Of a stretch of 64,000 nt of DNA, positions 28,952 through 57,262 are shown piece by piece. A program made the position numbers and the translations under genes. Within the stretch, counting starts at the first letter, position 1, and the number at the start of each line of letters is the position of its first letter. The notes under the pieces were generated by a model. The model ran no database searches, had not been told where the DNA came from, and was given only the letters and a program-made list of their open reading frames with translations. Location: assembly GCF_001908725.1 (NCBI RefSeq), contig NZ_CP018725.1, forward strand, positions 124,001 to 188,000, read 5' to 3'. The DNA comes from Xanthomonas vesicatoria ATCC 35937 (GTDB lineage: Bacteria; Pseudomonadota; Gammaproteobacteria; Xanthomonadales; Xanthomonadaceae).

Positions 28952-29058
28952 GCTCGGTGTCCTCACCGCTCGCGGGACACGCCGTGAACCCGTCCCTGGG
29001 GGCTCGGTGGCGGCATCCATGCCGCCACACGGTCCCGCAAGCGGCGAGGACACCGAGC
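28952..29058 (-). repeat. Dispersed hairpin element, full copy in minus orientation
   Basis: Two 27-nt arms (28952-28978 and 29032-29058) are complementary with two exceptions, both of which are G.U pairs when read on the minus strand. Inside is the palindrome GGCGGCATCCATGCCGCC. Read on the minus strand it aligns with the element at 29172-29299 (GCGGGACC, GCGGCATGGATGCCGC, GGACG, TGTCCCGCGA). It lies in the 644-base gap between mtnB and an amino-acid permease. Confidence 0.75.
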
Positions 29059-29171
29059 CAGACCGTTGGTCGGTTGCTTGCTGAAAAGCATGTTCGTTGA
29101 TCGGCTGGCGTTAGTTAGGCGGACGCCCTTGTCAGCACAGCAGGGCACCGAGCCTGCTGTTACCCCGTACA

Positions 29172-29299
29172 CCGACCCTCTCGACTGGTCCTTGCCCGCC
29201 CACCGTCGCGGGACCTTATGCGGCATGGATGCCGCATAAGAGCCTACACGGACGTACTTGCGGCATGTCCCGCGATGGTGGGCGGGCAAGGGCCCTGCA
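29172..29299 (+). repeat. Dispersed hairpin element, full copy in plus orientation (128 nt)
   Basis: Outer arms 29191-29214 and 29267-29290 pair over 24 bases with one G.U. The inner hairpin 29215-29240 is a perfect 12-bp stem around GG (CTTATGCGGCAT/ATGCCGCATAAG). The same 128-nt unit recurs at 57040-57167 with compensatory stem changes. The remainder of the gap 28761-29404 shows no gene. Confidence 0.8.
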
Positions 29300-29404
29300 T
29301 CCAAGCGGCAGATCGGCCGCTCTGCACCGAAGACCCGGATCATCCGCGCCGCCATACACCGATGCGCAGTCTTTGCGTCAGCCACCGATGGCTCGCGCGT
29401 TTGC

Positions 29405-30835
29405 TCAGCGGCCGTCGCGCAGGCGGCTATGGCGATAGCCATAGCCGAAATAGACCACCAGCCCGACCAGGGTCCACAGCCCCATCAGCATCCAGTTGTG
29501 CAGGGTCATTGCCGACAGCAAGGCAAGGCAGCTCAGCACACCGGCAGTGCAGATCAGCCACGCGGCCGGCATGCGGAACGGACGCGGCAGTTCCGGATGC
29601 GTGCGGCGCAGGATCAGCACACCGGCACAGACCGCGGCGAAAGCGATCAGCGTGCCCATCGAGGTCAACTCGCCCAGCACATCCAGCGGGAAGACGGCGG
29701 CCAGCAGTGCGATGCCCACACCGGTGATGACGGTATTGATGTGCGGCGTGCGGTACTTGGGATGGATGCGGGTGAAGATCGACGGCAGCAGACCGTCGCG
29801 CGCAATGATCATGAAGATGCGCGGCTGTCCGATGATCATCACCAGCACCACCGACGACAGCCCGATCAGCGCGCCCACTTCCACCACCACCCGCAACCAG
29901 GCCAGCTGCGGATGCGCAGCCACCGCGGTCACCACCGGCTCATCGGTGCCCAGCTGGGTGAACGGCACCAGGCCGGTCATCACCGCGGCCATGGCGATGT
30001 AGAGCACGGTGCAGATCACCAGCGACAGCATCATGCCGATCGGCAGATCGCGCTGCGGCCGGTGCGATTCCTGCGCCGCCACCGACACCGCCTCGAAGCC
30101 GATGTAGGCGAAGAACACCATCGCCGCGCCCCGCAGCACGCCTTCCATGCCGTACTTGCCCGGTGCTTCGTTGGCAGGGATGAAGGGATGCCAGTTGGCA
30201 GGGTCCACGTACTTCCAGCCTGCGGCAATGACCAGGATGATGAGCCCGGTCTTGAGGATCACCATCGCCATGTTCATCGCAGACGACTTGCGGATACCGA
30301 CATAGCACAGCCAGGTCAGCAACAACACGATGCCGGCTGCCGGCAGGTTGGCGATCGCGCCGGTGCGCTGCAGCTTGCCGTCCAGCGGTGCACTGACCAG
30401 GGCCGCTGGTAGATGGATGCCGAAGTGCTCCAGCAGGCTGAGGAAATAGCCGGTCCAGCTGACCGCCACTGCCGAGGCGGACACGCCGTATTCCAGCACC
30501 AGCATCCAGCCGATGAACCAGGCCGCCAGCTCGCCGAAGGTGGCGTAGGTATAGGTGTAGGCGCTGCCGGACACCGGCACCATGGCGGCGAATTCGGCGT
30601 AGGCCATGGCGCAGAACGCGCAGCAGATCGCCGCGAGCACGAACGACAGCACGATCGCCGGGCCGGCATGGTCGGCCGCGGCCTGGCCGGTGATGACGAA
30701 GATGCCGCCGCCGATCACCGCGCCGATGCCCAGGGCGGTCAGCCCCCAGGGCCCGAGCGCGCGTTGCAGGCCCAGCCCGTCGGCCGCCTCATGGCTGGCG
30801 TGCGGGTGTTTGGTGGCCCAAAGTTGTTTGAACAT
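29405..30835 (-). CDS. APC-superfamily amino-acid permease (cationic amino-acid transporter-like)
   Basis: A 476-residue inner-membrane transporter with about 12 hydrophobic segments. The family signature GIGAVIGGGIFVITGQAA in TM1 and the conserved AYAEFAAMVPVSGSAYTY, YIGFEAVSVAAQES and PHPKYRTPH-like loop (IHPKYRTPH) mark the CAT-type branch. The substrate is not readable from the sequence. It is a paralogue of the next gene upstream (30910-32382), with a strong hairpin between them, so the two may not be one simple transcript. Confidence 0.9.
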   Translation of the reverse strand: MFKQLWATKHPHASHEAADGLGLQRALGPWGLTALGIGAVIGGGIFVITGQAAADHAGPAIVLSFVLAAICCAFCAMAYAEFAAMVPVSGSAYTYTYATFGELAAWFIGWMLVLEYGVSASAVAVSWTGYFLSLLEHFGIHLPAALVSAPLDGKLQRTGAIANLPAAGIVLLLTWLCYVGIRKSSAMNMAMVILKTGLIILVIAAGWKYVDPANWHPFIPANEAPGKYGMEGVLRGAAMVFFAYIGFEAVSVAAQESHRPQRDLPIGMMLSLVICTVLYIAMAAVMTGLVPFTQLGTDEPVVTAVAAHPQLAWLRVVVEVGALIGLSSVVLVMIIGQPRIFMIIARDGLLPSIFTRIHPKYRTPHINTVITGVGIALLAAVFPLDVLGELTSMGTLIAFAAVCAGVLILRRTHPELPRPFRMPAAWLICTAGVLSCLALLSAMTLHNWMLMGLWTLVGLVVYFGYGYRHSRLRDGR

Positions 30836-30877
30836 GGAGCGGTTCCGGCTTGGCGCTGCGCGCGATCGTTGAACGAG

Positions 30878-30901
30878 AAGACCGGCGCGAACGCCGGTCT
30901 T
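30878..30901 (-). terminator. Hairpin between the two permease genes
   Basis: A perfect 10-bp stem AAGACCGGCG / CGCCGGTCTT with a CGAA loop (UUCG on the minus-strand transcript), followed on the minus strand by CTCGTTC. UUCG-type loops are very stable. It lies 9 bases after the stop of the upstream permease and before the next gene. Confidence 0.8.
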
Positions 30902-30909
30902 GGAGAGGG

Positions 30910-32382
30910 TCAGGCCTTACGGGCCAGACGGCTATGGTGGATGCCGTAGCCGAAATAGATGAACAGGCCGATCACCGTCCAGCCCACGAACACCTTCCAG
31001 TGCTCCTGGAAGGCCTGGAAGAACAGGAACAGACAGGCCACGGCACCCAGCGGGCAGATCACCATCGCCAACGGCACCCGGAACGGGCGCGGCAGATCTG
31101 GCTTGGTGAAACGCAGCACCATCACGCCGGCGCAGACGGTGGCGAAGGCGAGCAGGGTGCCCATCGACACCAGTTCGCCCAGCACGTTCAACGGGATGAC
31201 TCCGGCCAGCAGCGCCGCGACTACACCGACGAAGATGGTGCCGACATAGGGCGTGCGGAATTTCGGGTGCACCTTGCCGAATAGTTTGGGCATCAACCCA
31301 TCCTTGGCCATGGTGTAGAAGATGCGCGGCTGCGCCATCAGCATCACCAGCACCACCGAGGACAGGCCGGCGATCGCGCCGATCTCCACCGCGGTCTTGA
31401 GCCAGCTCAGTTGCGGGTGCGCTTCCAGCGCGGTGGCCACCGGCTTGGCGGTGCCGAGCTGGGTATACGGCAACAATCCGGTCAATACGGCGCAGACGAT
31501 GATGTAGATGACGGTGCAGATGGCCAGCGACACCAGGATGCCGATCGGCATGTTCTTCTGCGGATCTTTGGTTTCCCCGGCGGAGGTAGAGACCGCATCG
31601 AAGCCGATGTAGGAGAAGAACACGATGGACGCGGCGCGAAACACCCCGTCCCAGCCGAACTGGCCTGGACCGGTGTTTTCCGGGATGAAGGGATGCCAGT
31701 TCGCCGGGTCGATGTAAGCGATGCCGAAGCCGACGAACAGGCAGATCACTACCACCTTGATCGCCACCACGATCGCATTGGCGAACGCCGATTGAGTAAC
31801 GCCCACATAACACAGCATGCTCACCGCAGCGACGATCAACACAGCCGGCAGGTTGACGATGTTGCCGGAGCTGACAAAGCCATGGCCGTCCCAGGCCAAG
31901 GGCGCGCCCGCCAGTTCTGCCGGGAACGGCAGCCCAAGCGTGCCGGTCAGGAAACTGATCAGATAGGCGGACCAACCGACCGCGACGCTGGAGCCGGCAA
32001 ACAGGTACTCAAGCACCAGGCACCAGCCAATGAACCAGGCGATGCCTTCGCCGAGGGTGGCATACGAGTACGAATAGGCGCTGCCGGAGACCGGCATCAT
32101 CGCGGCGAACTCGGCGTAGCACAGGCCGGCGAAGGCGCAGGCGATGCCGGCGAAGACGAACGACAACATCACTGCTGGGCCGGCGTGATTTGCCGCGGCC
32201 TGACCGGTCAGGACAAAGATGCCGGCGCCGATCACTGCGCCGATGCCGAGCATGATCAGATGCTTGGCGGTGAGGGTCCGTTGCAGCGTCGCTTCGCCCT
32301 GCAGGCTGCCTTCGACCGGTTCGCCCGCATCCACACGTCCGGCGGGCTCGATCGGTTTGACCCTCAACAGAGACTTCAGCAT
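30910..32382 (-). CDS. APC-superfamily amino-acid permease, paralogue of the downstream gene
   Basis: A 490-residue, ~12-TM permease beginning MLKSLLRVKPIEPAGRV. The N-terminal membrane signature GIGAVIGAGIFVLTGQAA, CYAEFAAMMPVSGSAYSY, FFSYIGFDAVSTSAGETKDP and VHPKFRTPYVG correspond position by position to the neighbour, so the two arose by duplication. Upstream is a 175-base gap shared with the divergent Nudix gene. Confidence 0.9.
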   Translation of the reverse strand: MLKSLLRVKPIEPAGRVDAGEPVEGSLQGEATLQRTLTAKHLIMLGIGAVIGAGIFVLTGQAAANHAGPAVMLSFVFAGIACAFAGLCYAEFAAMMPVSGSAYSYSYATLGEGIAWFIGWCLVLEYLFAGSSVAVGWSAYLISFLTGTLGLPFPAELAGAPLAWDGHGFVSSGNIVNLPAVLIVAAVSMLCYVGVTQSAFANAIVVAIKVVVICLFVGFGIAYIDPANWHPFIPENTGPGQFGWDGVFRAASIVFFSYIGFDAVSTSAGETKDPQKNMPIGILVSLAICTVIYIIVCAVLTGLLPYTQLGTAKPVATALEAHPQLSWLKTAVEIGAIAGLSSVVLVMLMAQPRIFYTMAKDGLMPKLFGKVHPKFRTPYVGTIFVGVVAALLAGVIPLNVLGELVSMGTLLAFATVCAGVMVLRFTKPDLPRPFRVPLAMVICPLGAVACLFLFFQAFQEHWKVFVGWTVIGLFIYFGYGIHHSRLARKA

Positions 32383-32557
32383 TCAGTACATCCCTAAGTG
32401 GCAGAACGAAGGCGCGCGCGCCTGGGCGAAGGTGTGCGCCGCATCCCAATGGGACAGGCAAGCGGCCTACCTTGCCAAAGCTACACGCTCACGACAAGCG
32501 CGTACGCAGCATGAATGGCGATAATGGTCGCTGGTCAATGACAATCGGGAACGATAG

Positions 32558-33106
32558 ATGGTGGATGCAACCCTGCGACAGCAACTGGCGGCGTACCGCG
32601 CCCGCTGGCCGAACGAGTGCAAAGTGGCCGACCAGTTCGAGCAGCTGCTTGACGATGCCACCGATCCGTTCGTGCGCGAGCGTGTCGAAGGTCATTTCAC
32701 CGGCTCGGCCTGGGTCGTCAGCGCCGACGGCAACCGCACGCTACTGACCCACCATCGCAAGTTGCAGCGCTGGCTGCAGCTGGGCGGCCACGCCGATGGC
32801 GACCGCGATCTGGCGCAAGTGGCGCTGCGCGAGGCCGAAGAAGAGTCCGGTCTAACCGGTTTGCGTCTGGCAGATGCCGAGCTGTTCGACCTGGACCGCC
32901 ACTGGATTCCCGCGCGTGGCGAGGTGGCGGGGCACTGGCATTTCGACGCGCGTTACCTGGTGGTGGCAGGCACCGACGAAGCGTTCGAAGTCAGCGAAGA
33001 ATCGCTTGCACTGGCGTGGCGCCCGATCGCCGAGCTGCTTGCCGAGCCGGAGCTTGATCCCTCGCTGCGGCGCATGGCGCAGAAGTGGTTGGCGAGCCGG
33101 GAGTAG
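32558..33106 (+). CDS. Nudix hydrolase
   Basis: A 182-residue protein with the Nudix box GGHADGDRDLAQVALREAEEESGL shown by its ends (GGHADGD and REAEEESGL). The catalytic REAEEESG is intact, but the Glu expected in Gx5E is Arg. Nudix enzymes hydrolyse nucleoside diphosphates linked to another moiety; the substrate is not predictable. Start ATG 32558 lies in a region divergent from the permease. Confidence 0.85.
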   Translation: MVDATLRQQLAAYRARWPNECKVADQFEQLLDDATDPFVRERVEGHFTGSAWVVSADGNRTLLTHHRKLQRWLQLGGHADGDRDLAQVALREAEEESGLTGLRLADAELFDLDRHWIPARGEVAGHWHFDARYLVVAGTDEAFEVSEESLALAWRPIAELLAEPELDPSLRRMAQKWLASRE

Positions 33107-33266
33107 CGATTCGGGATTCGAGATGGGTAAAACAGCGATTCCGACGCCGTTCCGCATGGCCAGGATGCCGTTTCCTTTTCCTGTCCCTCGACGGCGGCGG
33201 CCCAGTAAACCCTCAAGTAGCCGCGCGCCGTTGTTACGAATCCCCAATCTCGCCCCCCCATCCCGG

Positions 33267-34508
33267 TCAGTAAAGCACCCGCGTCCGCAAGGTACCGGTG
33301 ATCTGTCCGAGCTCGTCCTTCAGCACGCCCGCCAGCTCCTCGCTGGCGCTGACATCGATCACCACATAGCCCACCTTGGGGTCGGTGCGCAAAAACTGGC
33401 CGTCGATATTGAGGTTGTGACGCGAGAACAGTTCATTGATCTGCGACAGCACGCCCGGCACGTTGCGGTGGATGTGCAGCAGCCGCAGGCTGTCGGGGTG
33501 CTCGGGCAGGGTGACCTCGGGGAAATTCACCGCCGACAGGGTGCTGCCGTTGTCGCTGTAGCGCACCAGCTTGGCGGTCACTTCAATCCCGATATTGTCC
33601 TGCGCTTCCAGCGTGCTGCCGCCCACATGCGGGGTCAGGATGACGTTGTCGTGGGCAGTCAGTGGCGATTCGAATGCATCGCCATTGCCCTTGGGCTCGA
33701 CCGGGAACACGTCCACCGCCGCGCCGCCGATCTGGCCGGAGGTGAGCGCCGCATCCAGCGCATCGATGTCGATGACGGTGCCGCGCGAGGCGTTGATCAG
33801 GTGCGCGCCAGGTTTCATGCGGGCGATTTCGGCTGCGCCGATCATGTCCTTGGTGGACGGGGTCTCCGGCACGTGCAAGGTGACCACGTCCGAGCGCGCT
33901 AGCAGGTCGTCCAGGTCAATCGCTGCACGGGCATTGCCCAGCGACAATTTGGTTTCGATGTCGTGGAAGATCACCTGCATGCCTAACGATTCGGCCAGCA
34001 CGCCGACCTGGGTGCCGATATGCCCGTAGCCGACGATGCCCAGCACCTTGCCGCGCGTCTCGTGGCTGCCGGCGGCCGACTTGGACCAACCGCCGCGGTG
34101 GCATTCGGCATTTTTCTGCGGAATGCCGCGCAACAACAGGATCGCTTCGGCGATCACCAACTCGGCCACGCTGCGGGTGTTGGAGTAGGGCGCATTGAAC
34201 ACCGGAATGCCGGCCAGCTCGGCCGCGTCCAGGTCGACCTGGTTGGTGCCGATGCAGAAGCAGCCCACTGCCATTAGCCGCTTGGCATGCGCCAGCACCT
34301 CGGCGCTCAATTGCGTGCGCGAGCGGATGCCCACGATGTGCGCGTCGGCGATGCGCGCGATGAGCTCGTCTTCGGGCAACGACTTGGCGTGCAGTTCGAT
34401 CTGCGAATAACCGGCGGCGCGGAACACATCCACGGCGGTCGGGCTGATGCCTTCCAGCAACAGGACGCGGATGTCCTGCTTGGGAAACGAGGTTTTCTTC
34501 GGCGACAT
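33267..34508 (-). CDS. serA: D-3-phosphoglycerate dehydrogenase
   Basis: A 413-residue enzyme for the first step of serine synthesis. Start at 34508 (MSPKKTSFPKQDIRVLLLEG); an ATG four codons upstream and a longer frame lack better support. NAD-binding GIVGYGHIGTQVG, catalytic region INASRGTVIDIDAL and TPHVGGSTLEAQ, and a C-terminal ACT domain (from about residue 340, NVPGVLSQINELFSRHN) giving likely serine feedback. It is divergent from a D-2-hydroxyglutarate dehydrogenase-like gene across 208 bases. Confidence 0.95.
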   Translation of the reverse strand: MSPKKTSFPKQDIRVLLLEGISPTAVDVFRAAGYSQIELHAKSLPEDELIARIADAHIVGIRSRTQLSAEVLAHAKRLMAVGCFCIGTNQVDLDAAELAGIPVFNAPYSNTRSVAELVIAEAILLLRGIPQKNAECHRGGWSKSAAGSHETRGKVLGIVGYGHIGTQVGVLAESLGMQVIFHDIETKLSLGNARAAIDLDDLLARSDVVTLHVPETPSTKDMIGAAEIARMKPGAHLINASRGTVIDIDALDAALTSGQIGGAAVDVFPVEPKGNGDAFESPLTAHDNVILTPHVGGSTLEAQDNIGIEVTAKLVRYSDNGSTLSAVNFPEVTLPEHPDSLRLLHIHRNVPGVLSQINELFSRHNLNIDGQFLRTDPKVGYVVIDVSASEELAGVLKDELGQITGTLRTRVLY

Positions 34509-34716
34509 GGGGGAGCGCATTGCAGCAATCGGGTCGGCAACTATGCCAGAAGGGGTGCCGGATTGGGCGCTCACACCGCAGCGATTGCCTACGGCAATCC
34601 CTTGCGCCGCAACGGTTTCAGCTGAATCCAACGCCGCGGCAGCACCTGGCCGCGCAACTGGACGAGGCCGCCGCGCGCTGGCACGCTGTGCGGTTCCTAC
34701 TGCAGCGCCGCGTGCC

Positions 34717-36135
34717 ATGACCGATCCCCGCATTCTTTCGTTGCAACAGGCCGTGCCGGCATTGCGTCTGAAAACCGAGCCTGCCGACCTGGAGCATTAC
34801 GGCCGCGACTGGACCCGGCGCTGGACGCCGAACCCGCTGGCCATCGCACTGCCAGGCTCGGTCGAAGAAGTGCAGGCCGTGGTGCGCTGGGCCAACGCGC
34901 AAGGCGTGGCGGTGGTGCCGTCGGGCGGCCGTACCGGTTTGTCCGGTGGCGCGGTGGCCGCCAACGGCGAGCTGGTGCTCAGCCTGGAACGCCTGAACAA
35001 GCCGTTGGATTTCAACGCCGTGGATCGCACGCTCACCGTGCAGGCGGGCATGCCGCTGGAAGCGGTGCACAACGCCGCGCGCGAACAGGGGCTGATCTAT
35101 CCGGTGGATTTCGCCGCACGTGGTTCGTGCTCGATCGGCGGCAACATCGCCACCAATGCCGGCGGCATCCGCGTGATCCGCTACGGCAACACCCGCGAAT
35201 GGATCGCCGGCTTGAAAGTGATCACCGGCGGCGGTGAGTTGCTCGAGCTCAACAACGCCTTGGTGAAAAATTCCAGCGGCTACGATTTCCGTCATCTGAT
35301 GATCGGCTCCGAAGGCACGCTTGGCATCGTGGTCGAAGCCACGCTACGGCTGACCGCCCCCCCGCCACCGAGCAATGTGATGCTGCTGGCGCTGCCCTCG
35401 TTCGAGGTGTTGATGCAGGTGTTCGCCGCATTCCGCGCGCAACTGCGGCTGGAAGCGTTCGAGTTCTTCACCGACCGCGCGCTGGAGCATGTGCTCGCGC
35501 ATGGCGCGCAGGCACCGTTTGCCGAGGTGCACCCGTATTACGTGGTCACCGAGTTCGCGGCCGGCGATGCCGCGCAGGAAGCGGCCGCGATGGCTGCATT
35601 TGAAACCTGCATGGAGCAGGGCTGGGTCAGCGACGGGGTGATCAGCCAGAGCGATGCGCAGGCGGCGCAGCTGTGGCGGCTGCGCGAAGGCATCACCGAA
35701 GCGCTGGCGCGCTATACGCCCTACAAAAACGATGTGTCGGTGCGCATCTCGGCAATGCCGGCATTTCTGGCTGAAACCCAGGCACTGCTTGGCGAGGCGT
35801 ATCCGCATTTCGATGTGGTGTGGTTCGGCCATATCGGCGACGGCAACCTGCATATCAATGTGCTCAAGCCCGACGGCACCAGTCAGGCAGATTTCGTGTC
35901 CGCCTGCGATCAGGTCACCAAGATGTTGGCGCAGGCGTTGCAGCGCTTCGGCGGCAGTATTTCTGCCGAACACGGCATCGGGCTGGTCAAGAAGCCCTAC
36001 TTGTGGAGCACGCGCTCTGCCGCAGACGTCGCGGTGATGCGCGGCGTCAAACGTGTGCTCGATCCTCATCTTTTGCTGAATCCCGGCAAGCTGTTCGACA
36101 TGGATGAGGTGCCCGGCGCAACGCGCGGCGGGTAG
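34717..36135 (+). CDS. FAD-binding oxidoreductase, D-2-hydroxyglutarate dehydrogenase-like
   Basis: A 472-residue flavoprotein of the GlcD/D2HGDH type. The PCMH FAD-binding domain shows VVPSGGRTGLSGGAVA, SIGGNIATNAGGIRVIRYG and MIGSEGTLGIVVEA. The C-terminal FAD-oxidase part has WFGHIGDGNLHIN and SAEHGIGLVKKPYL. Known: in other bacteria D2HG dehydrogenase removes D-2-hydroxyglutarate formed by SerA and so drives the unfavourable SerA reaction. The divergent pairing with serA supports that role here. D-lactate or glycolate oxidation are alternatives. Confidence 0.85.
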   Translation: MTDPRILSLQQAVPALRLKTEPADLEHYGRDWTRRWTPNPLAIALPGSVEEVQAVVRWANAQGVAVVPSGGRTGLSGGAVAANGELVLSLERLNKPLDFNAVDRTLTVQAGMPLEAVHNAAREQGLIYPVDFAARGSCSIGGNIATNAGGIRVIRYGNTREWIAGLKVITGGGELLELNNALVKNSSGYDFRHLMIGSEGTLGIVVEATLRLTAPPPPSNVMLLALPSFEVLMQVFAAFRAQLRLEAFEFFTDRALEHVLAHGAQAPFAEVHPYYVVTEFAAGDAAQEAAAMAAFETCMEQGWVSDGVISQSDAQAAQLWRLREGITEALARYTPYKNDVSVRISAMPAFLAETQALLGEAYPHFDVVWFGHIGDGNLHINVLKPDGTSQADFVSACDQVTKMLAQALQRFGGSISAEHGIGLVKKPYLWSTRSAADVAVMRGVKRVLDPHLLLNPGKLFDMDEVPGATRGG

Positions 36136-36169
36136 TCTCTTCATCACCTCACATGGAATCGACACGCCG

Positions 36170-36463
36170 ATGATGCGCTCCCTGGTGTTTTGTGCTTTGA
36201 CCCTGCTGCCGCTGGCAGCTGCCGCATCCAGTCTTGCGGGCACTTCGGCCGGCGCATCGTCGGCCGGTTCGTCCAACAGCAGCAGTTCTGGCGACGACAA
36301 GGTGGTAGCCGAAGCGCGCGAAGATGCGGCCGGTTTCGTGGCCAGCGATGGCGCCATCCGCGGCGCGCGGCTTGAAGCGGCGTTGCTGCAGTTGCGTAGC
36401 CGTAGCGATGCGGCGCGTCTGTCCAGCGACCTGGAACTGGCGCAGTCCATCCTGGCGCAGTGA
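36170..36463 (+). CDS. Small exported DUF2388 protein
   Basis: A 97-residue protein with a signal peptide (MMRSLVFCALTLLPLAAAAS), a Ser/Gly-rich linker, then the DUF2388 core DDKVVAEAREDAAGFVASDG and RGARLEAALLQLR. Function unknown. Its stop overlaps the GTG start of the next gene (GTGA), indicating coupled synthesis with the DUF4105 protein. Confidence 0.8.
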   Translation: MMRSLVFCALTLLPLAAAASSLAGTSAGASSAGSSNSSSSGDDKVVAEAREDAAGFVASDGAIRGARLEAALLQLRSRSDAARLSSDLELAQSILAQ

Positions 36464-38343
36464 ATCGTCGCCGCCGGTGCGTATGGCTGTGGCTGGCCGT
36501 CGCGATCGCACCGGCGGCGCAAGCGCAATCGCAGCGTTCGCCCGCGCTGCAGGTTTCGGTTGTCGCATCGGAGCTGAGCCCGTCCGAGCGTGATGCCAGC
36601 CAGGCGCTGGTACAGCAGGTCCAACGCCGGTTACCAGTCGGCTGGGTAGCGCGCGATGCGGCACCCATCTACTTGCAGTGGCGCCGCGATTTACCGGCGC
36701 AGGTGCATGGTCGCGCGGTGGGCAATCGCATCCTGCTCGATCATGCGCTGTTGGATGCCTGGAGCATGCAGTCCGCGAGTGCACGCAATGACATCAGCGC
36801 CCCGGCCACGCGGGCGGCGATGGCGGCGTTGGTCCATGAATTGGCGCATGTGCGCGACCGCGGGACGGGCAGTGCCTTGTCGCGCGACCCACGCCTGCGC
36901 GATCTTGCCGGCTGGCAGGTGCGTCCCTGGCGAATCGGACGCGGCGCAAACCGCTTCAGCGACCGCAGTCCCGACGCTTACGAGCGGCATAGCCCGGCCG
37001 AATTTGTTGCCGTCAATCTAGAGCATTACGTGCTGGACGCGGACTACGCCTGCCGCCGTCCAGCGCTCGCGGCATGGTTTTCCGAGCGGTTGGGGCCGCC
37101 GTTCGATGCGGTCACCTGCGCGCCGACCTTGCCGTATCTGCAGGCCGACAACGATGCTGGTGCAATGTCGTTGCTGGCCCTGGACCCGGCGCGGGTCTAT
37201 GCGGTGGACTATCTGCTTGCCGAAGGCAACGAGCAGCCGATGAGTCGCTGGGGCCACAGCATGTTGCGGCTGGTGATCTGCGCGCCCGGTCGCGTACCAG
37301 GGCCGGCGTGCCGGCTGGATCTGCAGTATCACCGCGTGCTGTCGTTTCGTGCCTTCGTCGGCGATGTGCAGATCTCCAGCTGGCGCGGGCTGACCGGCGC
37401 GTATCCGTCGCGGCTGTTCGTGCTGCCGTTGAATCAGGTCATCGACGAATACACCAAGGTCGAACTGCGTGCCCTGTCGTCGGTGCCGCTGGCGCTGCGT
37501 CCGGATGAGATCGCCGCGCTGCTGACGCGTGCGGCGCAGGTGCACTGGAGCTACGACGGGCGCTATTACTTCATCAGCAACAACTGCGCGGTGGAGACCT
37601 ACAAATTGTTGCACGACGGCGTGCCGCGTCTTGCTGAAGCCGGCTTGTCATCGATCACCCCGCGCGGCGTGCGCCAGCGGCTGCAGCGCGCCGGCCTTGC
37701 CGATCTGCACGTGTTGGACGACCGCGCGCAGGCCACGCGTCAGGGCTATTACTTCGAATCGGCGGCGGCGCATTATCAGGCCATGTTCGATGTGCTTCGA
37801 CGCGGCATTCCGGTGCCGCAGACGAGTGTCACGCAATGGCTGGATGCCCCGCCTGATGCACGCGCGCAGTGGTTCGAGCGCGGCGGCCTGCGCGAGACCG
37901 CAGCCGCATTGCTGCTGGAACAGGCTGCACTACGGCGACAGGAGCTGGTTGCGCGCGATGCGCTCAAGCGCTTGTTGCGGCCCGGCGCCGAGCGCGCCCC
38001 AATGCAGGATCAACTGCAGGGCCTGTTCGCTCGGCAGGCGCGTCTCAGTCACCCGGCTGCGCTGTTCAATGGCCCCTATCTCAATAGCCCCAGCTACGGT
38101 TTGCCGCAGGCCGACGAGCGGCAATATGTGAACGCGCAGGTTGCGCAGGCGAGCAACGGACTGGCCGATGGTTGGAAGCAATTGCAGGCTCTGGGCCGGC
38201 AGCAGTTGCCAGCTGAGTTGCGTGCCGATCTGGAGCAGGGCGAGGTGAATGTGGAAAGACTGCGTGCACGCTTGCGGGTGCTTGCACAGCCGGTGCAGGC
38301 AGTTGCGGCTGTGCCAGAGCAGGCAATGCCGCGGGAGCAATGA
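36460..38343 (+). CDS. Exported DUF4105 protein with an N-terminal HExxH motif
   Basis: A 627-residue protein from GTG 36460 with a signal peptide (ends APAAQAQ). An N-terminal region holds LVHELAHVRDRG (H126ELAH130), a zinc-metallopeptidase-like motif, followed by HSPAEFVAVNLEHY. The middle is DUF4105: MSRWGHSMLRLVIC, YHRVLSFRAFVGD and YYFISNNCAVETYKLL, with conserved His and Cys that suggest a papain-like/NlpC-type active site. The C-terminus is helical and Gln/Arg-rich. Predicted periplasmic. Activity untested; both motifs are read from the sequence. Confidence 0.8.
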   Translation: MNRRRRCVWLWLAVAIAPAAQAQSQRSPALQVSVVASELSPSERDASQALVQQVQRRLPVGWVARDAAPIYLQWRRDLPAQVHGRAVGNRILLDHALLDAWSMQSASARNDISAPATRAAMAALVHELAHVRDRGTGSALSRDPRLRDLAGWQVRPWRIGRGANRFSDRSPDAYERHSPAEFVAVNLEHYVLDADYACRRPALAAWFSERLGPPFDAVTCAPTLPYLQADNDAGAMSLLALDPARVYAVDYLLAEGNEQPMSRWGHSMLRLVICAPGRVPGPACRLDLQYHRVLSFRAFVGDVQISSWRGLTGAYPSRLFVLPLNQVIDEYTKVELRALSSVPLALRPDEIAALLTRAAQVHWSYDGRYYFISNNCAVETYKLLHDGVPRLAEAGLSSITPRGVRQRLQRAGLADLHVLDDRAQATRQGYYFESAAAHYQAMFDVLRRGIPVPQTSVTQWLDAPPDARAQWFERGGLRETAAALLLEQAALRRQELVARDALKRLLRPGAERAPMQDQLQGLFARQARLSHPAALFNGPYLNSPSYGLPQADERQYVNAQVAQASNGLADGWKQLQALGRQQLPAELRADLEQGEVNVERLRARLRVLAQPVQAVAAVPEQAMPREQ

Positions 38344-38530
38344 AATTGGCGTCCGCTGACGGCGGCGTTGCGGGTGCCGCGGGTGCATCCGAGAGACGAA
38401 CACGCCGACGTCTTGCAGGTCGTTGAACGACGACGCATGCGTCGACGTTGACAACAACACGCATGCCGCATTGCGCTGCGCCCGACAACCGTCGAGAAGA
38501 ACGCGCGGTTAAGCCTGTCTATCGTGAAAG

Positions 38531-38566
38531 AGCGGCTTGCGAGCGTCGACAACGCCGCAAGCCGCT
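38531..38566 (-). terminator. Terminator after the efpL-lipoprotein pair
   Basis: A perfect 11-bp stem AGCGGCTTGCG / CGCAAGCCGCT with a 14-base loop lies 19 bases beyond the lipoprotein stop. On the minus strand CTCTTTCAC follows. Confidence 0.75.
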
Positions 38567-38584
38567 ACATCTGTACGGCGCCGC

Positions 38585-39531: not shown

Positions 39532-39631
39532 GGGAATCGGGAGTTGGGAATGGGGAATGGGGAAAGCCGGGGCTGGGGTAATGGGAGCAGGGCGCCGTTA
39601 CGATTCCCCATTCCCGTTTCCCGATTCCCGG

Positions 39632-44953: not shown

Positions 44954-44954
44954 C

Positions 44955-45209: not shown

Positions 45210-45269
45210 CCCCTGCAGCGTCGGCTACACTTGCGCGGCCGCAGGACGCGGCGTGACAGGGGGCGGTGC

Positions 45270-45995: not shown

Positions 45996-47194
<1,199 letters not shown>

Positions 47195-47198
<4 letters not shown>

Positions 47199-47914
47199 CA
47201 TCGCCCGCCGTGATGCCGCAAGCGCCGGTTGCCACACGCATCGATAGCGTCGCCATCGGCGTCGCGCGCGACTTCACCCGCCCCGGTAGCCGTAGTGCGA
47301 TCGACAAGCGCGTTGTGCAAGGACCGCTGCATGTCGGGGTCGAAGGACTGCAAGGCGACGAGCAGGGCGACCGGCGCGTGCATGGCGGGCCGGACAAGGC
47401 GATCCATCATTATCCGCGCGATCATTACGCGGCTTGGCGCAACGAGCTTGGCGCGTATGCGCTGCTGGATGCCGCCGGCGCGTTCGGCGAGAACCTGAGC
47501 AGCACCGGCCTGACCGAGGCCACGGTCTGCCTCGGCGACCGCTTTACGCTGGGTACCGCCGTGGTGGAGGTCTCGCAGCTGCGTCAGCCGTGCTGGAAAC
47601 TGTCGGACCGCTTCGGTGTGCGCGACATGGCGCGTCGCGTACAGGAAACCGGTCGCACCGGCTGGTATTACCGCGTGTTGCAACCCGGCGCGGTGGCCTC
47701 CGGTGACATGCTGGCATTGCAGGAGCGCCCGCATCCGCAGTGGAGCCTGTCGCGGGTACAGCAGGTGCTGTATGCGCGCGACGTCGACGTCGTGGCCGTC
47801 ACCGAACTGCTGCAGCTTCCGCTGGTGCCGTCGTGGCAGTCCTTGTTCGAGCGCCGCCTGCAGCGCAGCGAAGTGGAAAGCTGGGGCAGAGGCCTGACCG
47901 GCCTTGACGACTAA
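47195..47914 (+). CDS. MOSC domain protein, YiiM-like
   Basis: A 239-residue protein starting at ATG 47195 (ATGA overlap with the aminotransferase). Motifs of the YiiM branch: LQGDEQGDRRVHGGPDKAIHHYP (given by its ends LQGDEQGD and HGGPDKAIHHYP), FGENLSSTGLTE and SQLRQPCWKL, whose Cys is the expected molybdenum-cofactor ligand. YiiM reduces N-hydroxylated compounds. The coupling with an aminotransferase is unexplained. Confidence 0.88.
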
Positions 47915-47989
47915 GAGCAGCTACGACGACTCCCGACTCCGCAATCCCCGCACCTTGTGCAACCCCCGCCGCCTCGCTAGCCTGCGGGC

Positions 47990-48706
47990 ATGACAACGTC
48001 TCCTGTAAAAGTTCTGATCCACGGCGCCTCCGGGCGGATGGGCAAGGCCTTGCTGCGCCTGGCGGCCGAAGACGACGCATTGCACGTCGTCGGCGCGGTG
48101 GTGGGGCGCTCGCCGTCGCAGCGCGTGATCGACGGCGTGCCGTTCTTTGCCGCCAGCGAGCTGGGCGGTGCGCCGGCCTTCGACGTGGCCATCGACTTCA
48201 GCCTGCCGCAGGGCTTTGCGCCGATCCTGGCGCTTTGTGCCCAACGCGGTAAGCCGCTGGTGTCGGGTACGACGGGGCTGGACGAAACCCAGCGCGCCGC
48301 GCTGATCGAAGCGGCGCAACAGATTCCGCTGGTGTGGGCCTCCAACTTCAGTCTTGGCGTCGCGGTGTTGACCGAATTGGTCGAGCGCGCCGCCGGCACC
48401 TTGCCGGGGTGGGACTGCGACATCATCGAGGCGCATCACGTGCATAAGCAGGACGCCCCATCCGGTACCGCATTGACGCTGGGCGAGGCGGCCACCGGCA
48501 GCGGTGCGCAGCCGCGGTTTGCCAGCCTGCGTGCCGGCGACATCGTCGGCGAGCACACCGTGCAGTTCACCGGGCTGGGCGAGCGTGTCGAGCTGGTGCA
48601 TCGCGCGACCAGTCGCGACATCTTCGCGCGCGGTGCGCTGCATGCGGCCAAGCGCCTGATCGGCCGGCCGGCCGGCAGCTATCGGGTGCGCGACCTGGTG
48701 CTGTAA
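47990..48706 (+). CDS. dapB: 4-hydroxy-tetrahydrodipicolinate reductase
   Basis: A 238-residue NAD(P)H enzyme of lysine/diaminopimelate synthesis. N-terminal [17 protein letters not shown], then [26 protein letters not shown], the catalytic [14 protein letters not shown] and the GEHTVQFTG loop. It lies upstream of carA with a 238-base gap that holds the carAB promoter. Confidence 0.96.
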
Positions 48707-48944
48707 CCCGCGCGCAACCGCGCATGAACAACTGCGCGATCGCGTGGCGTATTCATGCCGCCATTGCAGCACACCTGCCGCATCGGCTGTGTTGCAGGCT
48801 GGCATGCCGGGGCACTTGCCTTTACAATTCTCGCTTGCCCGAACCAGCGTCGGACCGGTCCTCAGCACCGCGTCCGCGCTTTGCTGCAACCGGAATTTGG
48901 CCGGAAGCGCATCGGAGTCCCAGGCAGCCAGAGCGAGACCCCAC

Positions 48945-50108
48945 GTGACCCAACCCGCAATCCTTGTCCTCGAAGACGGCACCGTGTTCGAGGGCGAATC
49001 CGTAGGCGCCAACGGGCTTTCCGTCGGTGAAGTGGTGTTCAACACCGCCATGACCGGTTACCAGGAAGTCCTGACCGATCCGTCCTATGCCCGCCAGATG
49101 GTCACGCTGACCTATCCGCATATCGGCAACACCGGTTTTACCGACCAGGACGACGAGGCCCGCAAGATCTGGGCCGCTGGCCTGATCGTGCGCGATGTGC
49201 CGCGTCGTCCAAGCAGCTGGCGCAGCGAAGTGGCCTTGCCGGAATGGCTGCAGGCGCGCGGTGTGGTGGCCATCTCCGGCATCGACACCCGCAAGCTGAC
49301 CCGTCTGTTGCGCGAGAAGGGCGCCCAGAACGGTGCGCTGATGGCTGGCGAGATCGACGTGGAAAAGGCACTGGAAGCCGCGCGCAAGTTCCCCGGCCTG
49401 AAAGGCATGGACCTGGCCAAGGTGGTTTCCACCGAGACCAGCTACAACTGGAAGGAAGGCGCGCTGGATCTGAACTCCGACGCCTTCCTGGGCCTCGGCG
49501 CCCTGAATGTCGGAACGTCCGCACAGGGGCAAACATTCAAAGTTGTTGCCTACGACTACGGTGTCAAGCTCAACATCCTGCGCATGCTGGCCGAGCGCGG
49601 TTGCGATGTCACCGTGGTGCCCGCGCAGACCCCGGTGGCCGAGGTGCTGGCGATGCATCCGGACGGCGTGTTCCTGTCCAACGGCCCAGGCGATCCGGAG
49701 CCCTGCGACTACGCCATCGCTGCGATCCAGAAATTGATCGCCAAGAAGGTGCCGACCTTCGGCATCTGTCTGGGTCATCAGCTGCTGGCGCTGGCCGCCG
49801 GTGCCAAGACGGTGAAAATGACCACCGGCCATCATGGCGCCAATCATCCGGTGCAGGATCTGGATGGCGGGCGGGTGATGATCACCTCGCAGAACCATGG
49901 CTTTGCGGTGGATGAAACCACATTGCCGTCCAATGTGCGGGTCACCCATCGCTCGTTGTTCGATGGCACCAACCAGGGCATTGCCCTGACCGACGCTCCG
50001 GCGTTTTCGTTCCAGGGCCACCCGGAAGCATCGCCGGGACCGCGCGATGTGGGGCCGTTGTTTGATCGGTTTACCGCGTTGATGGCCAAGGATGCCAACC
50101 GCGCATGA
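48945..50108 (+). CDS. carA: Carbamoyl-phosphate synthase small subunit
   Basis: A 387-residue glutaminase subunit. GTG 48945 starts the conserved [17 protein letters not shown]; the longer in-frame extension is not conserved-looking. Catalytic Cys in [13 protein letters not shown], His/Glu in [11 protein letters not shown]; the N-terminal domain has [17 protein letters not shown]. It makes ammonia for CarB in arginine and pyrimidine synthesis. A small membrane-protein gene overlaps its stop (ATGA) and sits between carA and carB. Confidence 0.96.
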
Positions 50109-50461
50109 GCGGTCGTCTGATAGGCGTGCTGATCATCCTGGCGGGTGTGGCGCTGGCGTATTGGGGCGTGTGGATGCCCCTGCAGCAGGCGCAGTCTGGC
50201 GCCGCGTCGATCACCGTGCCTGGAGGCATCAAACTGGCCCTGGTAGTGCCGATGTGTGTGGTGTTCGGCTTCGGCTATGCAATCGGCGGCGGGCGTTTTC
50301 ATCAGGCCATGCACAACACCGACCCGGACAAGGTGCGTCGCTGGGGCAAGACGTCCGGCTTCGGCTGGCTGCTGATAGTGATCAGTTTTGCTGCCGCGTT
50401 CGCACTGCATCAGTGGATGCAGCACAGCCTGCACGCCCTTGGGTATGGGTCGGCCGGATGA
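50105..50461 (+). CDS. Small membrane protein between carA and carB
   Basis: A 118-residue protein with three hydrophobic segments ([53 protein letters not shown]). It starts within the carA stop (ATGA) and ends 115 bases before carB. No family recognised; its placement in the car operon is the only hint and does not give a function. Confidence 0.75.
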
Positions 50462-50576
50462 CTCCGGCACTCGGCTCCGTGGAGTCGATCAATCATCATG
50501 CTGCGTTGCGATCTGATCGCCGCGGCCACTCTTTCCGCACCTGCGGCTTGCCGCATGTATTCAATCGGGTAACGAA

Positions 50577-53815
<3,239 letters not shown>

Positions 53816-53819
<4 letters not shown>

Positions 53820-54292
53820 GAGCACCCATGACGGCAAAGGGCGCGCAGCGTCTGCGCGAGGAATTGGACCAACTGAAATCGGTCAAGCGCCCGGCGGTGA
53901 TCGCCGCGATCGCCGAAGCGCGCGCGCACGGCGATCTGAAAGAGAACGCCGAGTACCACGCCGCGCGCGAGCAGCAGAGCTTCATCGAAGGCCGCATCAA
54001 ACAGCTGGAAGGCGAGCTCTCGCATGCCGAGATCATCGACATCACCAAGCTGTCGGCCGGCAACAAGATCGTGTTCGGCGCCACGGTGACGCTGGCCGAC
54101 ACCGAGACCGACGAAGAGAAGCGCTACCAGATCGTTGGCGATCTGGAAGCGGACATCAAGCTGGGCATGATCGCGATCTCCTCGCCGCTGGCACGTGCGT
54201 TGATCGGCAAGCTGGAGGGCGACTCGGTCACCATCGATGCGCCGGCCGGCCAGCGCGAGTACGAAGTGGTCAGCGTTGCCTATCTGGACTGA
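53816..54292 (+). CDS. greA: Transcript cleavage factor GreA
   Basis: A 158-residue RNA polymerase factor with an N-terminal coiled coil whose tip holds the acidic residues ([18 protein letters not shown]), and a C-terminal FKBP-like domain ([30 protein letters not shown]). It begins in the carB stop codon; a second in-frame ATG (MTAKGAQRL) four codons later is possible. carB-greA-rpfE-recJ form a tight rightward group. Confidence 0.96.
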
Positions 54293-54322
54293 CGCGCCGG
54301 GATTGAACGACGCCACCGCCCG

Positions 54323-55243
54323 ATGACCACCGCCACGCTGCTGCTGCCGGAAAAACGCCGCCTGCCCGGTGAACTGGGCGACACGCCGGTGGCGCGTGCG
54401 CTGGCGCGTGCCGACCAGCAAGGTGCCGAGCCCGGCGAAGTGGCGCAGCTGCAGCGCCACTTCTCGCTGACGCCTGCGCACTGGCCGGTGGCCGCGTTGA
54501 CCCGCCAGCTCGATGCCGGCGATGCGGCCGGTGCGACCTGGGTGCGTGCCGATCCGGCCTATGTGGTGCCGGATATGCAGGGCGCGCGCTTGATGGGCTA
54601 CGGCGAGGCGCTCGGCCCCACGGCCGAGGACCTGGCGGTGTTGCTGCCCATCCTCAAGCCGATGTTTGGCGATGCCGGCTTCCTGCTGGATGCGCCCACG
54701 CCTGCGCGCTGGTATCTGCGGCTGTCGCCGGATGCCAAATTGCCGGAATTTGCGCCACCGGATCTGGCGATCGGCGATGACCTGTTCGAGCATCTGCCGG
54801 CCGGCGAGATCGGCCGGCGCTGGCGTGCCTTGCTGACCGAGGCGCAGGTGCTGCTGCATCAGCATCCCTGGAACGAGGGCCGTGTGGCCAGCGGCAAGCC
54901 GGCGATCAATTCGCTGTGGTTCTGGGGCGGTGGCGTGCTGCCGCATGCGGTCAGCTCGCCGCACCGTCAGGTACGCAGCCGCGAATCACTCCTACGTGCG
55001 CTGGCGCTGGCGGCCGGTGCCGATGCGCAGGGCGAACAACGCGTGGATGCGTTGGTGGACCTGCGCCATCTGCGCTCGCTGCAGCAGTTCAGCGACGACG
55101 CGGTGGCGCCGCTGCTGGCGGCGATGGCACGTGGCGAACTGGATCGGCTGGTGCTGGATTTCCAGGATGGCGAAACCGTGTCGCTGACGCATGCGCAACG
55201 CTGGCGTTTCTGGCGCAAGCCGCGCGCACAGCTGGCGCAATGA
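54323..55243 (+). CDS. rpfE: RpfE-type regulatory/phosphoglycerate mutase-related protein
   Basis: A 306-residue soluble protein distantly related to cofactor-independent phosphoglycerate mutase-like proteins; KPAINSLWFWGGGVLP is its most recognisable motif. The name is given from gene order: in Xanthomonas and Xylella this gene lies between greA and recJ beside the rpf cluster. The biochemical role is not established. It is separated from greA by 30 bases and overlaps recJ by four. Confidence 0.7.
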   Translation: MTTATLLLPEKRRLPGELGDTPVARALARADQQGAEPGEVAQLQRHFSLTPAHWPVAALTRQLDAGDAAGATWVRADPAYVVPDMQGARLMGYGEALGPTAEDLAVLLPILKPMFGDAGFLLDAPTPARWYLRLSPDAKLPEFAPPDLAIGDDLFEHLPAGEIGRRWRALLTEAQVLLHQHPWNEGRVASGKPAINSLWFWGGGVLPHAVSSPHRQVRSRESLLRALALAAGADAQGEQRVDALVDLRHLRSLQQFSDDAVAPLLAAMARGELDRLVLDFQDGETVSLTHAQRWRFWRKPRAQLAQ

Positions 55244-56979
55244 CCTCCACCCCGCGGATCGTCCGGCGCCCGCCCGGGCAGGCCGGCAGCTGGCCCGATG
55301 CCATGTTGCCGCTGCTGCGCCGCATCTATGCCGCGCGTGGCGTCACCGATACCCACGGCGCGCAGCCGCGTCTGGGTCAGTTGCTGTCGCCGCAGTTGCT
55401 GCACAACAGTGACGTGGCGGCCGAGTTGCTGGCCGATGCGATCGCCCGGCAACGGCGCATCCTGGTGGTGGGCGATTTCGACTGCGATGGCGCTACCGCC
55501 TGCGCCGTGGGCGTGCGCGGCCTGCGCATGCTCGGTGCGCTGGATGTGCACCACGCTGTGCCCAATCGCATGGTGCACGGCTATGGTCTGTCGCCTGCAT
55601 TGGTGGACGAACTGGCCGCGCTGCAACCGGATGTGCTGGTCACCGTGGATCACGGTATCGCCTGCCACGCGGGAGTGGCCGCGGCCAAGGCGCGCGGTTG
55701 GACAGTACTGGTCACCGACCACCATCTGCCGGGTGAGGTGTTGCCACCGGCCGATGCGATCGTCGACCCGAACCTGGCGGTCGACGGTTTTCCCAGCAAA
55801 TCGCTGGCTGGCGTGGGCGTGATCTTTTACGTATTGCTGGCACTGCGCAGTGCGTTGCGTACGCGTGGCGCCTTCGCCGATCGTTCCGAGCCGGATCTGT
55901 CGGTACTGCTGGATCTGGTCGCCGTCGGCACGGTGGCCGATCTGGTGCCGCTGGACACCAACAACCGTGCGCTTGTGTCGGCCGGGTTGCGTCGGTTGCG
56001 CGAAGGCCGCGGCTGCATCGGATTGCGCGCCTTGATCGATGCCAGCGGCCGCGATATCGCGCGGCTGAGCGCCAGCGATATCGGGTTCGCGCTCGGGCCG
56101 CGCTTGAATGCGGCCGGCCGGCTGGAAGACATGGCATTGGGCATCGAGCTGTTGCTCAGCGAAGACTGGAGCCGGGCACGCGAGATCGCCGCCACGCTGG
56201 AAGAGATCAATGCCGAGCGCCGTGCGGTGCAGCAGTTGATGACCGACGATGCCGAGCAGGCAGTGACCAAGGTGGTGCTAGACGCCGATGGCGCCTTGCC
56301 GATCGCCGCCTGCCTGTTCGATGCGCAGTGGCACCCCGGCGTGATCGGCCTGGTCGCCTCCAAACTGAAAGACCGCTTGCATCGCCCGGTGATCGCGCTG
56401 GCCCCGGCCGAGCCGGGCAGCAGCCAGTTGCGCGGTTCGGCGCGGTCCATTCCCGGCCTGCATATCCGCGACGTGCTGGCAGCGGTGGATGCGCGTCATC
56501 CCGGCCTGATGCAGAAGTTCGGTGGCCATGCGATGGCCGCCGGGCTGAGCATCGATCACGCGGCGTTGGCCACGTTCGAGCAGGCCTTCCAGGCGCAGGT
56601 GATGGCGATGGTGGACGCCTCGCTGCTGCATGCCGAATTGCATAGCGACGGCGAGCTGGCCGCGCACGAACTCGATCATGTACACGCCGAAGCGCTGCGC
56701 GTGGCAGGGCCGTGGGGGCAGGGCTTTCCTGAGCCGTTGTTCGATGGGCAGTTCGAGGTACTGCAATACCGCGTGCTCAAGGAACGCCACCTCAAGCTGA
56801 CGCTGCGCTGCGCCGGCCGTCCCGAGCCGCTCAGTGCCATCCATTTCAACGGCTGGCACGGTAGCGAGCCAGCACGCATGGTGCGGCTGGCATATCGGTT
56901 GGTCAGCGACGATTACCGTGGCGGCACGGCGGTGCAATTGATCGTCGAGCATTGCGAGCCGGCAACACGCCTGGGTTGA
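55240..56979 (+). CDS. recJ: Single-stranded-DNA-specific 5'-3' exonuclease RecJ
   Basis: A 579-residue DHH-family nuclease. Motifs in order: VVGDFDCDGATACAVG (I), VTVDHGIACHAG (II), VTDHHLPGEVLPPADAIVDPN represented by TDHHLPGEVLP (III DHH), VAVGTVADLVPL (IV), LNAAGRLEDM, and a DHHA1 part with RSIPGLHIRDVL and GGHAMAAGLSI. A C-terminal OB domain follows. Start ATG 55240 overlaps the rpfE stop. The 349-base gap after it holds hairpin repeats. Confidence 0.96.
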   Translation: MTSTPRIVRRPPGQAGSWPDAMLPLLRRIYAARGVTDTHGAQPRLGQLLSPQLLHNSDVAAELLADAIARQRRILVVGDFDCDGATACAVGVRGLRMLGALDVHHAVPNRMVHGYGLSPALVDELAALQPDVLVTVDHGIACHAGVAAAKARGWTVLVTDHHLPGEVLPPADAIVDPNLAVDGFPSKSLAGVGVIFYVLLALRSALRTRGAFADRSEPDLSVLLDLVAVGTVADLVPLDTNNRALVSAGLRRLREGRGCIGLRALIDASGRDIARLSASDIGFALGPRLNAAGRLEDMALGIELLLSEDWSRAREIAATLEEINAERRAVQQLMTDDAEQAVTKVVLDADGALPIAACLFDAQWHPGVIGLVASKLKDRLHRPVIALAPAEPGSSQLRGSARSIPGLHIRDVLAAVDARHPGLMQKFGGHAMAAGLSIDHAALATFEQAFQAQVMAMVDASLLHAELHSDGELAAHELDHVHAEALRVAGPWGQGFPEPLFDGQFEVLQYRVLKERHLKLTLRCAGRPEPLSAIHFNGWHGSEPARMVRLAYRLVSDDYRGGTAVQLIVEHCEPATRLG

Positions 56980-57039
56980 TCTGAGAGCTTCGCGCGTCGT
57001 CATCCAGGCACCGCAATCAGTATCGCTTGCCCTGACAAA

Positions 57040-57167
57040 CCGACCATCTCGACTGGTCCTTGCCCGCTCACCGTCGCGGGACCCTTGGCGGCATGGATGC
57101 CGCCAAGGAGCTTACAAGGACGTACTTGCAGCGTGTCCCGCGATGGTGGGCGGGCAAGGGCCCTGCA
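57040..57167 (+). repeat. Dispersed hairpin element, second full plus-orientation copy (128 nt)
   Basis: It aligns without gaps to 29172-29299. Outer arms 57059-57082 and 57135-57158 pair over 24 bases with two G.U pairs. The inner stem 57083-57108 is a perfect 12-bp hairpin around GG. Three inner base pairs differ from the other copy with both partners changed. It lies between recJ and the convergent DUF1176 gene. Confidence 0.8.
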
Positions 57168-57195
57168 GCAAATGCCCAGCGTCGAGTGCGCGATG

Positions 57196-57262
57196 CCTCA
57201 CCGCTTGCGGGACACGCCGTGAATCCGTCCGTGCAGGCTCGATGGCGGCATCCATGCCGCCA
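57196..57262 (-). repeat. Partial minus-orientation copy of the dispersed hairpin element
   Basis: It matches 28961-29028 closely (GCGGGACACGCCGTGAA, GGCGGCATCCATGCCGCC) but its second outer arm is absent. It faces the copy at 57040-57167. The remaining bases up to 57328 show no gene. Confidence 0.7.

Follow-up and report, generated by a model that had tools for sequence, protein, structure and literature searches.

A 64,000-nt stretch of the Xanthomonas vesicatoria ATCC 35937 genome (NCBI RefSeq contig NZ_CP018725.1, positions 124,001 to 188,000), referred to here as the window, carries four copies of a dispersed hairpin element arranged in two inverted pairs, those on the plus strand being designated type A and those on the minus strand type B. 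The element measures 107-128 nt in the window, and full copies consist of a long stem, P1 (28 bp in A, 27 bp in B), with two hairpins, P2 and P3, at its tip. The first A copy, delimited by blast and by folding, occupies positions 29172-29299 of the plus strand (128 nt) and comprises the 28-nt 5' arm of P1 (29187-29214), hairpin P2 (29215-29240, hexaloop ATGGAT at 29225-29230), hairpin P3 (29242-29264, hexaloop ACGGAC at 29248-29253) and the 3' arm of P1 (29267-29294), placed from the fold and the alignment of A copies; over 52 A copies, 95.7% of the P1 cells are paired. Beside it, on the minus strand, lies the first B copy (28952-29058; P2 loop 29015-29020, P3 loop 28992-28997). The second A copy is found at 57040-57167 of the plus strand (P2 loop 57093-57098, P3 hairpin 57110-57132) and the second B copy, truncated, at 57206-57273 of the minus strand. 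The covariance model R1, built exclusively from cores of this genome (31 selected of 46 distinct ones, alignment A3), matches these copies with 90.6, 88.9, 95.1 and 62.9 bits, respectively.

A sequence-only reading of the window had proposed a gapless alignment of the two A copies and three two-sided changes in the inner stem; the alignment was reproduced (90% over 134 nt) and the changes (T-A to C-G, A-T to T-A and T-A to G-C) are all present. Its strand assignments were also borne out, as the plus strand of both A copies (-88.1 vs -82.3 and -91.5 vs -82.4 kcal/mol) and the minus strand of the B copy at 28952-29058 (-89.9 vs -80.8 kcal/mol) fold better than their complements. On the six strands of the three full copies the fold z score ranges from -7.1 to -10.1 and none of 200 shuffles folds as well. 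The description of 24-nt arms enclosing an inner stem had to be amended, since the outer stem is continuous and the additional hairpin P3 had been overlooked, and the partial B copy keeps its core and has lost the outer stem (z -0.87 on the minus strand; -0.9 and -1.6 on the two strands).

What had appeared as four isolated copies is part of a large family. Blast of an A copy against the own 5.35-Mb genome gave at least 119 matches and a B copy revealed further B places, for example at 288119 and 765537, both counts being lower bounds because the best 40 candidates were scored per query; a profile search of 37 places, fetched around the A matches, yielded 54 copies of A and 47 of B, including truncated ones. 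Both types occur at 33 places, and at 32 of these they are on opposite strands (the exception is near 3827904); in some places they form alternating arrays that repeat about every 345 nt. The arms are conserved between copies (identity 0.89 and 0.83), so that in this genome A and B spread with their arms. An apparent replication-strand bias of type A (24 of 36 places) was dropped, as it assumed an origin at the start of contig 1, where a 504-aa open reading frame (ORF) resembles, by eye, glucose-6-phosphate isomerase and not dnaA.

Within Xanthomonas, copies are present or absent between related genomes. The recJ protein encoded in the window shares 92-96% identity with its counterparts in many named Xanthomonas. 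Downstream of recJ (34 of 80 recJ loci scanned) the number of A/B copies varies from none, for example in X. cannabis (L163) and X. bromi (L179), to seven alternating copies in X. floridensis (L171). One record of this set, titled Bacillus subtilis SK7B5 (L190), has a recJ with 74% identity to that of the Xanthomonas query and stands among Stenotrophomonas records of like identity, which suggests a mislabelled or contaminated assembly. At an orthologous place with a solo A copy, Xanthomonas genomes differ at an inner pair, some having T-A and others C-G, with one ortholog mismatched at this position.

Matches to R1 at E <= 1e-3 were obtained in 56 of 274 genomes of the Gammaproteobacteria, representing 50 of 222 genera, and a second model (R2), derived from class-wide cores, recognized 52 of the 274 at E <= 1e-4. 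In a draw from the phylum 38 of 398 genomes matched, 37 of them inside the class, and the lone outside match is single, with an E value (6.6e-4) at the chance level for that many genomes. In the own family, two other genomes of the class sample lacked a match and four others of the phylum draw had one. Copy numbers per genome in these searches are lower bounds (best 18 or 13 per genome). A search of plasmid and phage collections with the 128-nt A element (E 1e-5) gave no match.

Outside the own genome, 62 elements from 23 genomes (40 from four genomes and 22 others) were compared; 61 have two ANGGAN loops, with a GGA-GGA distance of 20 nt in 54 of these 61, and 54 have two full CANGGAYG motifs. 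The result stands when six distinct elements first left out (L083, L087, L092, L095, L102 and L104) are re-added (66 and 58 of 68, respectively), two of which have a short stem (8 paired arm positions in L095 and 6 in L104). In four foreign genomes, with ten copies each, identity between copies is 0.85-0.91 in the core, 0.39-0.65 in the outer arms and 0.27-0.32 in the flanks beyond. Similarly, a 2.3-kb query from the genome G239 gave blast matches at 35 other places of that genome, confined to query positions 1123-1194, that is, 72 nt comprising the core and inner P1. A clean insertion junction was sought by comparing G239 with G691 and at the own solo-A place, and only diverged empty sites were seen. 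Two further observations concern foreign loci: a second dispersed repeat, multicopy in G239, adjoins the twin-loop element (L157, 757-954), and a core-model match stretched to 115 nt (L301, 306-420) suggests an insertion inside the element.

The loops of the fold are constant. In the alignments of own-genome copies (A1, 52 of 54 A; A2, 42 of 47 B; truncated or odd copies were left out), a C-G closed hexaloop ANGGAY tops P2 in 47/52 A and 38/42 B copies and P3 in 45/52 A and 38/42 B copies. Within the loops, variation peaks at N of P3 (1.75 and 1.49 bits in A and B), while the neighbouring A, G, G and A are nearly invariant. The two CANGGAYG motifs are found together in 76 copies (42 of 52 A, 34 of 42 B), in which the GGA spacing is 20 nt (72) or 19 nt (4).

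The stems, in turn, change on both sides. Two-sided change was counted in 93 cells of the A copies vs 28.8 after shuffling and in 12 pairs vs 7.8 (4 of 500 shuffles reached the observed 12); for B the counts are 30 cells vs 8.7 and 9 pairs vs 3.2. The copies of each type are mutually related, which makes the shuffle control generous; slid controls were likewise below the observed values. Class-wide cores gave 156 two-sided cells vs 37.4, reached in none of 500 shuffles, in an alignment (A4, also behind R2) that was fitted to the structure of R1 and includes 33 rows, two of them low-scoring antisense partial matches; one P2 pair of its stored structure does not hold in 27 of these 33 rows. At each of arm positions 4-26 of the 62 foreign elements, three or four kinds of Watson-Crick pair occur and 49-62 of the 62 pairs are Watson-Crick; mutual information is near the entropy at many of these positions.

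The imperfect pairs are not symmetric between strands. Among the arm pairs of the 68 foreign elements, 1918 (94.5%) are Watson-Crick, 60 are G.U on the core strand, 17 are A.C and 35 are other (G.U vs A.C, p=8.9e-7; 52:16 in the set of 62, p=1.4e-5). P1 of the own-genome copies points in the same direction (134:26 in A, 148:16 in B), these counts being inherited among related copies. Thus, the covariation and strand-specific wobble initially noticed in the window are real and extend far past it, to A, B and foreign elements. When 64 elements were sorted by gene direction, the excess persisted in sense (8:2), antisense (31:12) and convergent or divergent (18:5) settings. Pure arm-to-arm correction would give no such bias, and under selection through the neighbours' mRNA the bias would change sign. 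This leaves a single-stranded form of the core strand, either a separate RNA or single-stranded DNA (ssDNA).

No Rfam family matches the window at the gathering level. A match to mir-4860 (30.7 bits; gathering score 100) was rejected as merely a long GC hairpin, and a weak match of a B copy to RF02770 Ysr224 (17.6 bits, E 0.21; gathering score 70) gave the lead to Yersinia. In that genus a repeat named YPAL or RU-2 was reportedly described by De Gregorio in 2006 and Delihas in 2007. Its printed 168-nt sequence, as given in the portion of PMC2759123 available, holds the same core, the 3' half of which is identical at 28 of 31 nt to a core of the genome G083. The predicted folds are similar, with two ANGGAY hairpins on a long P1-like stem and 21 nt between the GGAs in YPAL/RU-2, and here, too, TTYACGGCGT follows a pair of short ANGGAY hairpins carried by a long stem; YPAL/RU-2 is longer than the 107-128 nt of the window copies and has one extra 3-bp hairpin in its predicted fold. 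YPAL is described in passages of PMC2229807 as an intergenic, multicopy repeat with filled and empty sites, target duplications of 3-26 bp and targets of dyad symmetry, and the word CsrA is absent from that article. The element studied here is similarly multicopy, intergenic and different between related genomes, as judged in the own genome and genus. The hosts named in the literature passages retrieved are restricted to Yersinia and Erwinia carotovora, and an excerpt of PMC2267715 lists YPAL for Y. pestis with no Xanthomonas in its text. Other elements of the kind of miniature inverted-repeat transposable elements, ERIC and NEMIS/Correia, are alike, by the description in part of PMC2229807, in their length of about 100-170 bp, long hairpin, mostly intergenic location and non-autonomous nature. 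By its sequence, the element is a class-wide YPAL-type element, and the earlier suggestion of a structured mobile repeat was right. A repeat described in Yersinia now belongs to a structured element found across many gammaproteobacterial genera.

Support is good for the element and for its core-strand fold, and very probably we are dealing with a mobile element of the YPAL type whose core-strand fold is selected. The conserved unit, a core of about 62 nt, folds when single-stranded into P2 and P3, with their ANGGAY-type hexaloops held out on P1. The twin loops may serve as a two-site dock for a dimeric hairpin-binding protein, of which CsrA/RsmA would be the best-matching known candidate, the bound form presumably being single-stranded RNA of the core strand. 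Systematic evolution of ligands by exponential enrichment (SELEX) yielded for CsrA the consensus RUACARGGAUGU with a six-base loop, the hexaloop bound by RsmE is ANGGAN, and a CsrA dimer bridges sites 10-63 nt apart with an optimum above 18, according to the sections of PMC7652899 at hand. At least two ANGGAN hexaloop hairpins at such a distance were found in the element by sequence, and P3 variants such as UACAAGGACGUA are near the SELEX sequence. The RNAs CsrB, RsmY/Z and RsmU likewise present repeated GGA hairpins with a six-base ANGGAN loop and a spacing suited to the CsrA dimer; unlike them, the element occurs as dispersed mobile copies, has two sites and is, elsewhere than in the own genome, mostly antisense to its neighbours, the likeness being one of sequence. 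Identity with RsmU of X. campestris was discarded: RsmU lies in the 3'-untranslated region (UTR) of comEA, the own comEA locus (L292) has no R1 match, and the two are set apart by locus. In the own genome, two more core-model matches (61.0 and 45.5 bits) lie near a second, weaker ComEA-like match (L293, 450-516 and 611-680). Literature searches confined to open-licence papers turned up no report that ties such repeats to CsrA or describes the family in Xanthomonas.

We give an even chance to the view of a small non-autonomous YPAL-type element whose twin loops form a two-site dock, with CsrA/RsmA as the best-matching protein; that CsrA/RsmA actually reads the loops falls somewhat short of this. 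More tentative is the broader proposal that a class-wide mobile element bears a ready-made twin CsrA/RsmA site, so that the copies of each genome might together act as a distributed, mobile layer of titration or addressing superimposed on the Csr/Rsm network, their outer arms turning over freely while staying complementary. The fold and the loops name a testable partner. Should CsrA/RsmA read the element, this would be a case of mobile DNA colonising a global RNA regulator; otherwise the element is a model for the spread of a palindrome without a known transposase, with arms that change and stay paired.

Several observations weigh against a CsrA/RsmA-bound RNA. The loop is altered in a minority of the own-genome copies (P2 in 5/52 and P3 in 7/52 A copies; each loop in 4/42 B copies), and one ortholog of the solo-A place (L244) has lost the GGA of P2. 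At 8-10 bp, the P2 stem exceeds most SELEX hairpins in length, and very stable stems were thought disadvantageous by the authors of that study in the part of PMC7652899 consulted. P2 and P3 of the own-genome copies show no excess of G.U over A.C (10:9 and 4:5 in A, 3:4 and 3:2 in B). The own genome has one csrA gene, and csrA was detected in 51 of 56 element-bearing vs 184 of 218 other class genomes (p=0.28) or, among near-complete genomes, in 43 of 44 vs 169 of 192 (Fisher p=0.056), absences having been read by eye from match lists, as for the Y1 transposase below; the higher share among near-complete element-bearing genomes speaks for the CsrA/RsmA reading, but the association is weak and confounded by phylogeny. 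The genome G196, 98% complete, has at least nine copies and no csrA match.

The orientation of the copies belongs among these unfavourable points. Gene context was taken from home-made ORF calls, discarding ORFs that cover an element before naming the neighbours; outside the own genome 23 of 80 elements lie inside some ORF of >=150 aa in some frame, and gene directions were Pfam-checked for 20 flanking genes of the genomes G083 and G178, 19 of which have a family. At convergent places of the own genome, 26 of 36 copies adjoining a gene end lie antisense to that gene (p=0.011). The 80 foreign elements lie at 75 places (53 codirectional, 14 convergent and 8 divergent), and single codirectional elements are antisense in 37 cases vs sense in 13 (overall 18/63 sense, p=9e-4). 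In the per-genome list, which covers 67 single elements, this bias is driven by G083 (9/9) and G178 (7/8), and without both it is 19:12 (p=0.28). As the single foreign copies are mostly antisense, a role in the neighbours' mRNA is weakened, for those mRNAs would carry the complement, without GGA loops. The role as small RNA, processing or transcript-end element considered initially is not supported, for the same reason and because the wobble follows the core strand regardless of the neighbours. Some foreign elements reside within apparent operons, such as that between ParA-like and ParB-like genes (L297).

Among the alternatives, the one that survives best, possible though doubtful, is a mobile hairpin acting at the DNA level, in which ssDNA of the core strand would be a transposition intermediate, the loops would be recognised by a transposase or host factor and the likeness to CsrA sites would be coincidental. 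A wobble bias that tracks the core strand whatever the gene direction is expected from it, as are copies that come and go between related genomes and the spread of core copies within G239. It lacks a candidate transposase, since the single Y1 match of the own genome lies about 69 kb from the nearest located copy and G239 has none, and it leaves the fit of both loops to ANGGAY unexplained.

The covariation might also be mutational and silent on RNA, if one arm of the palindrome serves as template to correct the other during replication. This explanation, which the sequence-only reading held as its main alternative, changes both sides at once by one event and suits the divergence of the arms relative to the core in the four foreign genomes, where pairing is nonetheless 94.5-95% Watson-Crick with few intermediates; with arms only 0.39-0.65 identical between copies, a G.U share of about 3% is a very clean outcome if compensatory change were the sole process. 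The scarcity of intermediates suggests that correction is also at work, and it probably helps to keep the arms complementary. As the sole explanation it is unlikely, slightly more so than the DNA-level hairpin: equal numbers of G.U and A.C are predicted instead of 60 and 17, and the constant loops are left unaccounted for.

A quite improbable reading is that of a host-domesticated 3'-UTR element, either an RsmA sponge or a transcript-end hairpin of the upstream gene, similar to RsmU, which the excerpts of PMC7694677 describe as a 3'-UTR-derived RsmA-binding RNA of X. campestris in which GGA changes abolished neither binding nor function. The places of the own genome are 18 convergent, 19 codirectional and none divergent (gene pairs for comparison: 7 convergent and 7 divergent in the window, 1 and 6 among other pairs of the fetched regions), and 18 of the 19 codirectional ones are nearer the upstream stop (median distance 112 nt from that stop and 261 nt from the start that follows). 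At the orthologous place, six of seven orthologs were compared, leaving out L248, whose element carries a deletion; element identity is 0.891 vs 0.783 and 0.773 in the side intergenic stretches. Nevertheless, about the same identity is seen in the sequence leading up to the next gene (0.887) and in the gene end (0.907), the own codirectional copies have no clear orientation (A 14 sense and 17 antisense, B 16 and 11), and a rule restricting the element to 3' ends, which the own genome would suggest, fails at the 8 divergent foreign places. The antisense copies at convergent places and in other genomes, the range of zero to seven copies after recJ and the comEA locus without R1 match likewise speak against a 3'-UTR function.

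Mobilization as repetitive extragenic palindromic (REP) sequences or bacterial interspersed mosaic elements (BIMEs) by a REP-associated tyrosine transposase (RAYT) is very improbable: the element shares with them a palindromic and intergenic character and arrays of alternating orientation, yet it has neither the GTAG head nor a 20-40 bp palindrome, is several-fold longer, differs from the Xanthomonas REPs in the published portion seen (PMC2817692) and was found without a cognate RAYT flanked by the repeat, the Y1 transposase being matched in 43 of the 56 genomes with the element and in 143 of the other 218 (p=0.15), with no match in G239 and its 36 copies. The earlier remark that no transposase is nearby thus holds more widely, as no linked REP-associated (Y1) transposase was detected in the own genome or in G239. 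The only Y1 (RAYT-type) match of the own genome (G000:C1:3599712-3600035, L075) lies in a 3.3-kb locus without core-model match.

Two repeats of the window, at 23037-23107 and 23188-23258 (73% alike), resemble by eye a Xanthomonas REP (GTAGGAGCGCACC...) printed in Table 1 of PMC2817692, seen in part, and constitute a family different from the twin-loop element. Next to the first inverted pair, positions 29405-30835 and 30910-32382 hold tandem permease-like genes, the first of them a Pfam amino acid permease, whose aligned DNA stretches are 71-75% alike.

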